The notes beneath the pieces were generated by a model, which was not told the origin of the DNA, ran no database searches, and worked only from the letters and a program-made list of their open reading frames with translations. A stretch of 64,000 bases of DNA from Streptomyces sp. NBC_00285. Its GTDB lineage: Bacteria > Actinomycetota > Actinomycetes > Streptomycetales > Streptomycetaceae. A program made the position numbers and the translations under genes. Below, piece by piece: positions 14,133-38,223 of this stretch (its first letter is position 1; the number at the start of each line of letters is the position of its first letter). The DNA lies in NCBI RefSeq assembly GCF_036174265.1, contig NZ_CP108055.1, positions 7,316,001 to 7,380,000 of the forward strand. The letters are read 5' to 3'.

Positions 14133-14330
14133 TCAGAACAGCCGCAGTTTGTCGTCCTCGATGCCGCGCAGCGCGTTGTAGTCCAGGACCGTGCAGCCGA
14201 TGCCGCGGTCCGTGGCCAGTACGCGGGCCTGGGGCTTGATCTCCTGGGCGGCGAAGATGCCGCGCACCGGGGCGAGATGGGGATCGCGGTTCAACAGGTC
14301 CAGATAGCGCGTGAGTTGCTCGACGCCGTC
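14133..14330 (-). pseudogene. nucS: Displaced native 3' end of nucS
   Basis: The minus strand encodes the last 65 residues of a native NucS (GVEQLTRYLDLLNRDPHL ... LRLF, then stop). There is no NucS start: the frame runs into element DNA at the core CCGTC (14326-14330). Joining this to 37750 onward restores an uninterrupted nucS reading EIKRRGEIDGVEQLTR. The first 159-160 residues therefore lie 23 kb away at the right junction. A 97-codon open frame runs on into the element to an ATG at 14426 but has no NucS N-terminus. This fragment is about 68 percent identical (43 of 63 by my count) to the replacement 3' end carried by the element. Confidence 0.93.
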
Positions 14331-14350
14331 CGTATTCCCAAAGGTACCGC
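14321..14350. other. attL of the nucS element
   Basis: The host arm CGACG precedes the core CCGTC (14326-14330), followed by the element arm. That arm ends in AAGGTACCGC (14341-14350), the exact reverse complement of GCGGTACCTT at the right end (37721-37730). Confidence 0.85.
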
Positions 14351-14363
14351 CGAATGGTACAAT
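14335..14363 (+). promoter_or_regulatory. Likely promoter of the serine integrase inside the attP arm
   Basis: TTCCCA (14335-14340) and TACAAT (14358-14363) are separated by 17 bp, a reasonable sigma-70-type promoter, 26 bp upstream of the integrase ATG. It lies wholly on the element side, so expression would be the same in the integrated and circular forms. Confidence 0.55.
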
Positions 14364-14388
14364 ACGGACATAAAGGAACATTCGGCGT

Positions 14389-15921
14389 ATGAGTACCACC
14401 CAAACCTCACCGGTCTCAATCAGCATTGCACTTCAGCGCGTTGCCGACTACGCGCGACTTTCTGAAGACGACGCCAAAGACCCCGATCTGAGGGGCGAAA
14501 ACGTCGGCATCCAACTGGACGAGTGCGCCGTCTTTAGGACGACTCGACCTGACTGGACGCTCGTCGGAAGCTTCAAAGACAACGACATCTCAGCGTCGGC
14601 GTACGGCAACGAAGTCCGCGAGGACTTCGAGCGACTGATGAACCTTGTTCGCACCAACGGTGTCGACGTCATCCTGTGCGTCGAGGTAACGCGCCTCTTC
14701 CGTAAGCCGCTTGAGGCTGAGGTTCTGATCGACCTGGTGTGGTCGAAGAAAACCACCTTCCACACCGTTGTCACCACACGCGGTGGGTACTACGACCTCC
14801 GTACCAGTGCCGGACGCAAGGCAGTCCGCGACGCGGTGAACGCCGCTGCTGGTGAGAGCGACAACATTTCAGACCGCGTGCGAATGAAGAAGGCTGCGCT
14901 TGCTCGTCGGGGGATGCCCAACGGTGGACGCCGCCCTTACGGGTTCGAGGCGAACCACATTGACCACCGTGCATCCGAGATCGCGGTCATGCGCGAGATG
15001 GCCGAGCGCATCATCAAGGGTGAGTCAGAGCTGTTCATCATGGCCGACCTTGACGCGCGAGGTGTCAAGACTGCCGAGGGCGGCCGGTGGACAAAGGCCA
15101 CCATGGTCAACATGCTGCGGCGCGTGCGATACGCACCGTTCGACGACTCCGGCAGGGCAATCCGCGAGCACAACGGTGTTCACTACAAAGCTGTTTGGGA
15201 CGCGGTCTTTGATGCCGTCACTTGGGAAAAGCTGCAAGCTGCTCTGAACGGCGATGCCCAACTACGCGAGCAGCGAGGCAACCCCCGCAAGTATCTACTT
15301 CGTGGGTTCGTGTTCTGCGGAGCCTGCGGTTCATTGCTCGGCGGCTCGATGAAACGTGACCGCCCGAGTCAACCGAACAAGCCGCGTTACAAGTGCAAGC
15401 CGTATGACGCCTATGGCAGGCGTACAGGATGCAGCGGGGTGTCTCGACTGGCTGAGCCGATGGAGGATTTCATCAGTGAAGCGGTCCTGTTCCGGCTGGA
15501 CAGTCCGGAGTTCGCTGCCATCTTCGCCGAGAACGACGAAGACTCTGCCAAGCTGAAGGCTGCGCTCGATGTACGGCAGCTCAAGAAGCAGAAGCTCGAC
15601 GAGCTGATCGACGGCTATTACGGCGAAAACCCGGACGACCTGAGTCGCGAACAGTTCATGCGCGCCAAGGCATCCGGTGAGGCTGCGCTCAAGAGTGCCG
15701 AGCGCGAAGTCGAGAAGTACAGCACCAAGCGTGCTGTGGTTGGCATCCCGATCGGTCAAACGATCCGTGAGGCGTGGGAGCGAAACGCTGACATCGGGTG
15801 GCGTCGAAAGATCGTCGGTCTACTGGTAGACAAAGTCATCGTGCATCCAGGCGGTGGTAAGCCTCGATACAAGCGATGGCGCTTTGACGTTGAGCAGATC
15901 GAGATTCAGTGGAAGGTGTAG
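14389..15921 (+). CDS. Large serine recombinase (site-specific integrase)
   Basis: A 510-aa integrase that joins attP to attB without high homology. The catalytic domain spans residues about 17-165, with the nucleophile Ser25 in YARLSEDD and later EVTRLFRKPLE. The recombinase domain spans about 190-290 (GRRPYGFEANH). A zinc ribbon is formed by Cys310, Cys313, Cys336 and Cys348. A coiled-coil segment lies about 390-445 with a C-terminal DNA-binding end. ATG 14389 is preceded by AAAGGA 11 nt away. The gene sits against the left attachment site, and its length and domain set are those of phiC31-like integrases, so it is the obvious enzyme for the nucS insertion. No recombination directionality factor was recognised. 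Confidence 0.95.
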   Translation: MSTTQTSPVSISIALQRVADYARLSEDDAKDPDLRGENVGIQLDECAVFRTTRPDWTLVGSFKDNDISASAYGNEVREDFERLMNLVRTNGVDVILCVEVTRLFRKPLEAEVLIDLVWSKKTTFHTVVTTRGGYYDLRTSAGRKAVRDAVNAAAGESDNISDRVRMKKAALARRGMPNGGRRPYGFEANHIDHRASEIAVMREMAERIIKGESELFIMADLDARGVKTAEGGRWTKATMVNMLRRVRYAPFDDSGRAIREHNGVHYKAVWDAVFDAVTWEKLQAALNGDAQLREQRGNPRKYLLRGFVFCGACGSLLGGSMKRDRPSQPNKPRYKCKPYDAYGRRTGCSGVSRLAEPMEDFISEAVLFRLDSPEFAAIFAENDEDSAKLKAALDVRQLKKQKLDELIDGYYGENPDDLSREQFMRAKASGEAALKSAEREVEKYSTKRAVVGIPIGQTIREAWERNADIGWRRKIVGLLVDKVIVHPGGGKPRYKRWRFDVEQIEIQWKV

Positions 15922-36579: not shown

Positions 36580-37335
36580 GTGCTCTGGTTGGACGACTAC
36601 GAGCGCCGGGCGCGACTTGCGCCCGGCCTCCTCGCGTTGCTGCCCGTCAGCGTTGCGCTGGCGGTTCTTGGTCTCAGCAAGGCTCCCGTTGTTGTCTCGG
36701 TTCTTATGGCGCTCTCGCTGGCCGGCGGTCCGATCGTCCTCGCTGAACTCGTACGTCACCAAGGACAGAAGGTTCAGAAGACTCTCTGGGCCTCATGGGG
36801 CGGGTCCCCGACCATCCAGGAACTTCGGCTCCGACAAGAGGGGCAGAATTCGCTACAGCGGGAGACCTGGCGGAAGGCCGTCTCATCTGTGACCGGGATC
36901 GAACTGGCCTCGGCTCGCAGCGAACGGGCGAACCCGACCAAGGCCGACGAGGCGATAGAGGTTGCTGTCGGCCAGATTCGTAACCTCACGCGGGATGAAG
37001 CGAAGTTCCCTCTCGTACGTGCCGAGAACCGGGGTTACGGCTTCCATCGGAACCTGTACGGCATCCGATGGACCGGACGGATCACCGCGCTCCTGGTGGT
37101 CCTTGGCGTCCTGGCGTACATGCTGTGGCTCGCGAACGTCGAGCATCAGCCCGCCATCACCCTCGTGAATGTCCTCGCTCTCGTCGCGACCGTGGTCTGC
37201 CTCGTTATCTGGTGCTTCCTTCCGTCGCAGGCACGCATGAAGAACGCCGGAGAAAAGTACGCGTACGAGCTGCTGCAAGCTGCGGTTCTCTTGGTCACCG
37301 AGAAGGCCCAACCTGCCCCTGAGGGAACCCAGTAG
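36580..37335 (+). CDS. Membrane protein partnered with the MBL hydrolase
   Basis: A 251-aa protein with two pairs of membrane helices, at about residues 15-35 and 38-58, then about 168-188 and 195-213. They are separated by a 100-residue soluble loop containing a helical SSVTGIELASARSERANPTK region. GTG 36580 follows the MBL stop TAG by one base. The 2+2 helix layout resembles SLATT- or S-4TM-like effectors, but the match is only topological. The tight pairing with an MBL enzyme suggests a two-protein module. Confidence 0.72.
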   Translation: MLWLDDYERRARLAPGLLALLPVSVALAVLGLSKAPVVVSVLMALSLAGGPIVLAELVRHQGQKVQKTLWASWGGSPTIQELRLRQEGQNSLQRETWRKAVSSVTGIELASARSERANPTKADEAIEVAVGQIRNLTRDEAKFPLVRAENRGYGFHRNLYGIRWTGRITALLVVLGVLAYMLWLANVEHQPAITLVNVLALVATVVCLVIWCFLPSQARMKNAGEKYAYELLQAAVLLVTEKAQPAPEGTQ

Positions 37336-37416
37336 CCCGACGCGAGCCGCGTCGAGGGCGGCGTGGTGGACGGCGAGTGCAAGCGGTTGTAGCACTGCCA
37401 TTCGTCCGCAGTATCA

Positions 37417-37450
37417 AAAGCGCAAGGCCAGTCGAGTGGCCGGGCGCTTT
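37417..37450 (+). terminator. Terminator at the right end of the element
   Basis: AAAGCGC/GCGCTTT outer stem, a 2x2 internal loop, and GGCCA/TGGCC inner stem with loop GTCGAG. It stops plus-strand transcription before the convergent nucS. Confidence 0.8.
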
Positions 37451-37470
37451 GTGCGTGCAAGATCGTCGAT

Positions 37471-38223
37471 TTAGAACAGGCGATCTTCCTTGTTGTCGAT
37501 GCCGCGAAGCTCGTCGTAATCAAGGACGACGCACCGCATGCCGCGATCCTCGGCAAGCGTCCGAGCCTGCGGCGCGATGCTCTGAGCTGCGAGGATGCCC
37601 CCGACGGGCGCAATCGTCGTATCCCGGTTCAGGAAATCCAGGTACCGCGTGAGCTGTTCCACTGCGTCGATCGTGGCGCGTCGCTTGATCTCCACAGCCC
37701 AGTGCCTAGGCTTAGGGGAAGCGGTACCTTCCTTCGACTCCGACCCGTCGATCTCACCGCGCCGCTTGATCTCCACCGCGACGGTCTGTCCGTCGGCGTC
37801 CCGGCACAGGATGTCGACCGGGCCGATGGCCGTCATGTACTCGCGGCGGATCAGGCTGTAGCCGTCTCCGAGCGTTTCGATGCGGTCCGCGAGCAGTTCC
37901 TGGAGGTGTGCTTCCACGCCGTCCTTGATCAGGCCGGGATCCACGCCCAGTTCGTGCGAGGAGTCGTGCAGGATCTCCTCCATCGTGATGATGAGCTTCT
38001 CGCCCGCCTTGTTGATGACGGTCCAGACGCCTTCGTCGTCGCCGGTTCCCTCCTTCAACGTGCAGGGCGGCGACATCCAGTTCAGGGGCTTGTAGGCCCT
38101 GTCGTCGGCGTGGATGGAGACGCTGCCGTCCGCCTTCACCAGGATCAGACGGGGGGCCGAGGGCAGGTGGGCGGTGAGCCGGCCCGCGTAGTCGACGGAA
38201 CACCGGGCAATGACGAGACGCAT
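37471..38223 (-). CDS. nucS: Chimeric endonuclease NucS (host N-terminus, element-supplied C-terminus)
   Basis: NucS/EndoMS cuts mismatched DNA and provides non-canonical mismatch repair in actinobacteria. This copy is 250 aa. Residues 1-160 are host, including D137 in GPVDIL and E151/K153 in VEIKRR. From residue 161 the frame is element DNA: SESKEGTASPKPRH, a second AVEIKRR (E178/K180), then a diverged C-terminal half ending EDRLF. Compared with the native reading, 27 residues (161-187) are inserted before VEQLTRYLD. The native last 65 codons remain at 14133-14330. ATG 38223 (MRLVIARCSVDY) is the family start. Whether the chimera is active is the key open question. Confidence 0.93.
   Translation of the reverse strand: MRLVIARCSVDYAGRLTAHLPSAPRLILVKADGSVSIHADDRAYKPLNWMSPPCTLKEGTGDDEGVWTVINKAGEKLIITMEEILHDSSHELGVDPGLIKDGVEAHLQELLADRIETLGDGYSLIRREYMTAIGPVDILCRDADGQTVAVEIKRRGEIDGSESKEGTASPKPRHWAVEIKRRATIDAVEQLTRYLDFLNRDTTIAPVGGILAAQSIAPQARTLAEDRGMRCVVLDYDELRGIDNKEDRLF
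37721..37749. other. attR of the nucS element
   Basis: The element arm GCGGTACCTT (37721-37730) is followed after 14 nt by the core CCGTC (37745-37749) and then host nucS sequence GATCTCACC. Its arm is the exact inverse of AAGGTACCGC at the left end. Confidence 0.85.

Follow-up and report, generated by a model that had tools for sequence, protein, structure and literature searches.

An element of predicted conjugative type inside Streptomyces nucS appears to supply the gene with a foreign 3' end

Reconstitution of the target gene is described for a recognised class of genomic islands (PMC12884075). The nearest precedent for the locus reported here is the e14 prophage, which is described as integrating in the icd gene of Escherichia coli, where the 3' end (163 bp) is severed and replaced by one from the prophage, the gene being regained on excision (PMC6379469). 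A mismatch-repair gene is the reported target of SpyCIM1 and related islands, which reside in mutL of Streptococcus pyogenes and undergo excision (PMC4689407, PMC3430984, PMC4129442). Here I describe an element of ∼23 kb inside nucS, in a stretch of 64,000 nucleotides (hereafter the window; G000:C1:7316001-7380000) of the 10.3-Mb genome of Streptomyces sp. NBC_00285, whose nearest relatives are Streptomyces. In Actinobacteria, the majority of which are described as lacking MutS-MutL, NucS is the mismatch-repair endonuclease (PMC5290159); its loss in Streptomyces is reported to give a hypermutator, and the gene is described as present once in each of the 125 Streptomyces species examined (PMC11109965). 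The explanation that I favour, with a probability of about 0.85, is that a conjugative-type element, likely placed by a large serine recombinase, lies inside nucS past the catalytic strand and brings a foreign in-frame 3' end, the host likely retaining a working chimeric endonuclease.

Like e14, the nucS element is inserted inside a core protein gene and supplies its own in-frame 3' end for the one cut off; as for a working restored gene, the evidence here is residue conservation in the chimeras. In e14, the attachment sites attL and attR are described as homologous, with one conservative replacement upon excision (PMC6379469). The nucS element differs in its foreign end (68–72% identical to the native one), its duplicated catalytic strand and 27-residue linker, the serine recombinase at its junction, and the occurrence of chimeras without the element in other lineages. 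A first-pass annotation of the window had offered SpyCIM1 as a loose analogy. This is apt for the target, both elements being mobile and located in a mismatch-repair gene, but not for the mechanism: SpyCIM1 is described as entering the 5' end of mutL and blocking its transcription, which gives a mutator, whereas the nucS element replaces the 3' end in frame.

Insertion of the element in nucS

The resident nucS is an uninterrupted frame of 250 codons (38223-37474, minus strand) encoding both Pfam NucS domains, and the gene remains open as a 250-residue chimera. Its 5' part (37745..38223, minus strand, including a 5-bp core) is host-derived and encodes the N-terminal domain (Pfam NucS_N), aspartate D137 and a first copy of the VEIKRR strand, while its 3' part (37471..37744, minus strand, stop codon included), attributed to the element, encodes a linker, a second VEIKRR copy, helices and the tail EDRLF. 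Residues 1–162 are 93–95% identical to the intact NucS of three relatives (G392, which is S. viridochromogenes NRRL 3413, G011 and G264), and the last part 65–68%. At the other end of the element, a displaced native nucS 3' end (14133-14330, minus strand) is still open, with 65 codons plus a stop; it ends in KLRLF and is 95% identical in DNA to the intact nucS of G264. The element is bounded by two copies of the 5-bp core CCGTC, at 14326-14330 (integrase-side junction) and 37745-37749 (nucS-side junction), and an in-silico cut at this shared core restores ...VEIKRRGEIDGVEQLTRYLD..., the standard Streptomyces nucS frame.

The same three relatives carry an empty site, each with an intact NucS of 223 residues. 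At all three, the blastn matches of the left flank (to 14330) and of the right flank (from 37745) overlap by exactly 5 bp; because the flanks abut with this exact overlap, the insertion is bounded at the core and the empty gene is of the 223-residue form. The two parts of NucS are adjacent at native spacing in all 34 of the genomes returned as relatives, and no element-free relative with a 250-residue NucS was seen. The in-silico cut and the 223-residue empty sites bear out the proposal, made in the first-pass annotation, that the native C-terminus left at 14133-14330 gives back nucS when rejoined. Its claims that a serine-recombinase element splits the gene and that the host keeps an open NucS frame also stand, the former with further support from a related contig (L063), the recurrent junction and a displaced native-type end in a second genome (G706), all described below.

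The element had further been credited with replacing 63–65 lost codons, and with exchanging the catalytic half of the nuclease, which is correct in part: a foreign 3' end is supplied, comprising a second E-x-K strand, the helices after it and the clamp tail, but ∼90 codons are brought, including the element's own catalytic strand (RHWAVEIKRR), and the host keeps D137 and its own E-x-K strand. Because the element duplicates the catalytic strand, NucS is 27 residues longer. The duplicated codons form 34-nt direct repeats across the junction (repeat family D3, plus strand), with the element copy at 37665-37698 and the host copy at 37746-37779, 82% alike and spaced by 81 bp, or 27 codons. An assembly artefact was considered and ruled out, as the same type of junction recurs in many separate records.

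Rejoining the element ends yields a predicted attP, in which a perfect 10-bp inverted repeat (GCGGTACCTT at 37721..37730 and AAGGTACCGC at 14341..14350, both given on the plus strand) has its arms 29 nt apart, with the core between them; 4 of 20000 single-base shuffles, used as a control, matched this. The same script found no comparable inverted repeat of at least 6 bp in L063.

L063 (IMGVR_UViG_3300010226_000050, 44 kb) is a contig of a viral collection and codes for a protein related to the NucS end of the element. Its serine recombinase (554 residues, 36% identical to that of the window) overlaps, as the longest open reading frame (ORF), a headless NucS C-terminus of 94 residues on the opposite strand. 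Since in the window the integrase and the nucS end lie at opposite ends of the element, this is the order expected of a circle. The excised junction foreseen in the first-pass annotation is thus seen in a relative, though not in this strain. Over 86 residues, this headless C-terminus shares 98.8% identity with the end of P0085, a NucS that carries the name Streptomyces sp. BBFR109 and has a Streptomyces-type N-terminal part. L063 was the only headless NucS end found in the wider viral collection. None was recognised in phage records, where three unannotated records matched and were not examined further, nor in plasmid records, where the two matches, one annotated as nucS and the other unannotated, both cover query residues 15–89 and so lack the linker. 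A second related integrase (L075, 37% identical to that of L063) has no nucS end within 7.7 kb.

At its contig start (L006), S. viridochromogenes NRRL 3413 holds the 3' end of a close integrase relative and a 72% homologue of window positions 28181-29155. This fragment cannot serve as a second insertion, being at the edge of a contig separate from the intact nucS, which is itself an empty site. No nucS end was found in the 19 kb fetched around each of the closest integrases of other sampled Streptomyces, those of G011 and G264 (38–39%).

Divergence, recurrence and active strand of the chimeric NucS

I compared the two parts of the protein separately, using 31 native loci, with the N-part bounded by the motifs VDY and GPVD and the C-part starting at the helix. 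Nine Streptomyces-type sequences with an element-type end are 91–93% identical to these native Streptomyces NucS in the N-part and 68–72% in the C-part, whereas native sequences compared with each other give 91% and 92%, respectively. For the window itself, the element 3' part from the helix onward has a mean identity of 68% (best 70%) to the 31 native sequences and of 78% (best 83%) to 4 Pseudonocardiaceae chimeras; the element 3' part is 75% identical to the homologous headless ORF of L063. By these comparisons, the nucS end of the element belongs to a divergent branch. In one pair, P0039 (Streptomycetaceae) and the partial P0034 (Pseudonocardiaceae), identity is 98% in the C-part and 75% in the N-part, and from such diverging identities it follows that the NucS C-terminal end moves independently of the remaining gene, and across orders.

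A search with residues 160–250 of the resident NucS returned 7719 proteins, of which the best 120 were listed, ranked by similarity to the C-part. Hosts named among these include several Streptomyces, Actinacidiphila, Amycolatopsis, Actinosynnema and Pseudonocardiaceae. P0097 lacks the anchor and was dropped, leaving 119, and 118 of these 119 show a lengthened junction, in which the host strand, or what is left of it, is followed by a linker, the second strand and helices; P0035 (named S. hainanensis), with an element-type end at native spacing and a single strand copy, was omitted from the 118. Homologous elements and chimeras elsewhere, which had been suggested as a check on the annotation, were thus found. 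Two chimeras apparently co-occur with a close integrase, one pair being named Streptomyces sp. NPDC048504.

G706, of the same class, has a chimera and a native-type nucS end 3.5 kb downstream (L070, G706:C239, 1143-5594). One ORF, presumably an SNF2-type helicase (read by eye, without a family search), lies between them, and no integrase is present on this 6.2-kb contig; one distant serine-integrase relative (26%) lies on another contig. The locus is proposed to be an insertion at the same codons that is either reduced in size or of another kind. Elsewhere, an orphan fragment of a NucS C-terminus (∼48 codons) was noted at L071 (G121:C7, 6971-7117), alongside an intact nucS in the same genome.

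The second strand of the chimeras mostly reads RHWAVE[IV]KR[RK]. Its E-x-K is intact in all 119 anchored matches, a count biased towards this outcome by a query that contains the second strand and not the first, while the host copy of E-x-K is lost in 37 of 118, as scored loosely (any E-x-K in the expected stretch being counted as retention); neither count is corrected for kinship. As the element-type copy is always intact and the host copy often lost, the element-type strand is probably the working one. In an alignment of 43 sequences, D137, E178, K180, Q190 and Y194 are invariant, and I take them to be catalytic from what holds for the family. The chimera has the hallmarks of EndoMS/NucS, namely the N- and C-terminal NucS domains and the D and E-x-K residues of the RecB-like motif. 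On this conservation, the chimera is likely functional.

Integrase and cargo of the element

At the left junction lies the gene for a large serine recombinase of 510 residues (14389..15921, plus strand), a predicted integrase by its PHROG match. It has the Resolvase, Recombinase and zinc-ribbon (Zn_ribbon_recom) Pfam domains of large serine integrases, and the attL and attR have in common a short core of 5 bp. Among its 54 listed relatives, 25 are at least 49% identical, some being partial, with 93% identity in Streptomyces sp. NPDC048504. Matches were found in 605 phage and 46 plasmid records, every one below 60% identity. A phage identity for the element was rejected, as the integrase has only distant phage relatives.

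Three further genes have counterparts in L063/G1074. An ORF of 182 residues directly after the integrase (16024..16572, plus strand; no Pfam match) is in the same place in L063, with 34% identity. A Replic_Relax protein (16768..17451, plus strand; 38% to G1074), assigned by Pfam as a candidate relaxase or replication protein, is the sole candidate for the relaxase expected of conjugative elements. The coupling protein of integrative and conjugative elements (ICEs) is represented by a TrwB/TraD-like ATPase of 797 residues (24005..26398, minus strand), above the Pfam cut-off for PF10412 and PF02534 and 42–44% identical to G1074. Like ICEs and the actinomycete ICEs (AICEs) of Streptomyces, the element has a coupling ATPase, a replication/relaxation protein and a site-specific recombinase, and it is predicted to be of conjugative type. 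No type IV secretion system (VirB4) was found among the 19 element ORFs scanned with Pfam; further ORFs were left unscanned.

The element also encodes regulators and an intact tyrosine integrase of 496 residues (18551-20041) with an excisionase-like helix-turn-helix gene. This pair (18551-20400) within a serine-recombinase element may reflect a nested or composite element, whose boundaries were not found. A cargo gene at 34248-34964 is 5-formyltetrahydrofolate cyclo-ligase-like. Between 35448 and 37335, a metallo-beta-lactamase-fold protein matches the candidate defence family PDC-M48B (E 1.4e-79), and is followed by a 251-residue protein with hydrophobic stretches and without a Pfam or PADLOC match; the two are a possible defence pair.

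Alternative explanations and implications

In the favoured explanation, the serine recombinase would join attP to an attB within nucS, after which the element's 3' part would be driven by the host promoter and N-terminal domain. VEIKRR...RHW, the duplicated stretch, would become a looped-out linker, and the element's own VEIKRR strand would replace the host strand in the nuclease fold. Excision would restore the native 223-residue gene. In some lineages the element would be lost and the chimera retained, with the host strand, now idle, falling into decay or, in the case of G120, missing altogether.

Several observations weigh against this explanation. Chimeras are uncommon in sampled whole genomes, being found in 4 of 394 in a family sample (E 1e-110) and 2 of 394 in a class sample (E 1e-38), the window's genome counted in both. 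Among 392 sampled Streptomyces, the matches listed, in which a linker-bearing chimera would rank top, include such a chimera in the window's genome only, and a linker-free form in G120; an overlapping draw of 378 gave the same two genomes. A close integrase (E 1e-60) was likewise found among the 392 in the window's own genome only. As to ancestry, the C-parts of the nine element-type sequences are closer to the 4 Pseudonocardiaceae chimeras (78–84%) than to native Streptomyces, but native Streptomyces C-parts are also 78% identical to these chimeras, so this comparison does not name the donor.

The structural models are likewise divided. An AlphaFold model from the 43-sequence alignment, which included sequences with a decayed host copy, shows the host copy as coil (146–169, predicted local distance difference test (pLDDT) below 50) and the element copy as a strand (174–183), and its best structural matches are the NucS/EndoMS entries 2vld and 5gke. 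In a control model built from 43 chimeras chosen for having both copies intact, both are strands, at 147–153 (a block of mean pLDDT 81, then 46) and 174–183 (blocks of 70 and 80), with a predicted template modelling score (pTM) of 0.40. The claim on the working strand is therefore carried by the evolutionary pattern, not by the model.

The tail also calls for caution. Native Streptomyces NucS ends in KLRLF in all 34 loci translated, in agreement with a published account in which this tail is described as the clamp-binding motif (PMC11109965). Hence the insertion swaps a predicted clamp-binding tail, from KLRLF to EDRLF. The chimeric tail keeps R-L-F but departs from the pattern [E/K]-[L/Y]-[T/R]-L-F, given as valid for many, not all, NucS members (PMC8228993); 14 of the best 120 listed matches conform to it. 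With such a departure, function could be reduced. The first-pass annotation had suggested that the element, while resident, could alter mutation rate or tolerance to incoming DNA.

Finally, three genomes (G494, G456 and G413) have a chimera with no second native-type end, and their fetched stretches hold no recognisable element genes, with the exception of one HATPase-like relative in G494; the assemblies of G456 and G413 are drafts split into hundreds of contigs, and their histories are therefore inferred. In G494 (L053-L054), nucS is separated from the next syntenic stretch by 18 kb; nine ORFs scanned in or near this interval gave two NB-ARC/TPR proteins and one rve transposase, and tblastn detected no serine-integrase relative there, with one distant relative (27%) elsewhere in the genome; G413 has no serine-integrase relative. 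The first strand is eroded in G494 and G456 and intact in G413, while the second is kept in G494 and G456. From these loci, it appears that some lineages lost the element and kept the chimera. G120 has a NucS of 225 residues with an element-type end (88% DNA identity) and no linker. Recombination between the 34-nt repeats would delete exactly 27 codons and give this form, and I infer that it arose in this way, although G120 could instead resemble the donor.

An unlikely alternative is that the chimera is inactive or weak, the integrated state being a mutator relieved upon excision, as with SpyCIM1 in streptococcal mutL. The 27 extra residues in the nuclease domain, the altered tail and the poor control model speak for it. 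However, the element carries a full conserved replacement end, superfluous for a mere disrupter, its E-x-K is intact throughout the anchored matches, and the second strand outlasts the first in G494 and G456, although G413 has both intact. Far less probable is that an internal tandem duplication, or homologous recombination of nucS alleles, produced the long NucS, with the element as an unrelated neighbour. The direct repeat spanning the junction is compatible with this, as is the element-type C-terminus of G120 without linker or recognisable element, but it is contradicted in the window by the displaced native end, and further countered by the 5-bp core with abutting flanks at empty sites and by the headless 3' end at the L063 integrase. 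Equally improbable is insertion by the tyrosine integrase, intact and paired with its excisionase-like gene as it is, since the serine recombinase sits at the junction here and in L063, a 5-bp core fits a serine integrase, tblastn (1e-4) detects no tyrosine-integrase relative in the 44 kb of L063, and serine-recombinase relatives apparently co-occur with chimeras elsewhere.

Beyond the insertion of a conjugative-type element in this one gene, a wider proposal is possible but doubtful: that a family of conjugative elements spreads foreign NucS catalytic ends across Actinobacteria by site-specific recombination, each insertion making a chimera with a new active-site strand and clamp-binding tail, that many lineages keep the chimera after element loss, and that the swap, for as long as the element is mobile, may reversibly switch either the mutation rate or the barrier against foreign DNA.

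The open-access literature searched, which leaves out subscription papers and preprints, yielded no description of an element residing in nucS; nucS does not occur in the main text of the account of target-reconstituting islands (PMC12884075), of a study of 11 closely related Streptomyces (PMC9513070), or of a survey of mycobacterial prophage attB sites (PMC10654092). Restoration of a target gene is already known, but no case was found there in which a core mismatch-repair nuclease is replaced in part, recurrently and sometimes, it appears, permanently. What sets the nucS element apart is that its end is foreign, that the catalytic strand is duplicated, and that such chimeras recur widely and appear to have been domesticated. 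Because its attB lies in a single-copy nucS, the recombinase is a candidate tool for integrations in which the target gene would stay open. An element that swaps the catalytic end and clamp-binding tail of NucS would be a route by which a core repair gene may evolve through mobile DNA, with the duplicated catalytic strand as a readable scar of the insertion, and the natural chimeras would let one ask which strand, and which tail, matter.

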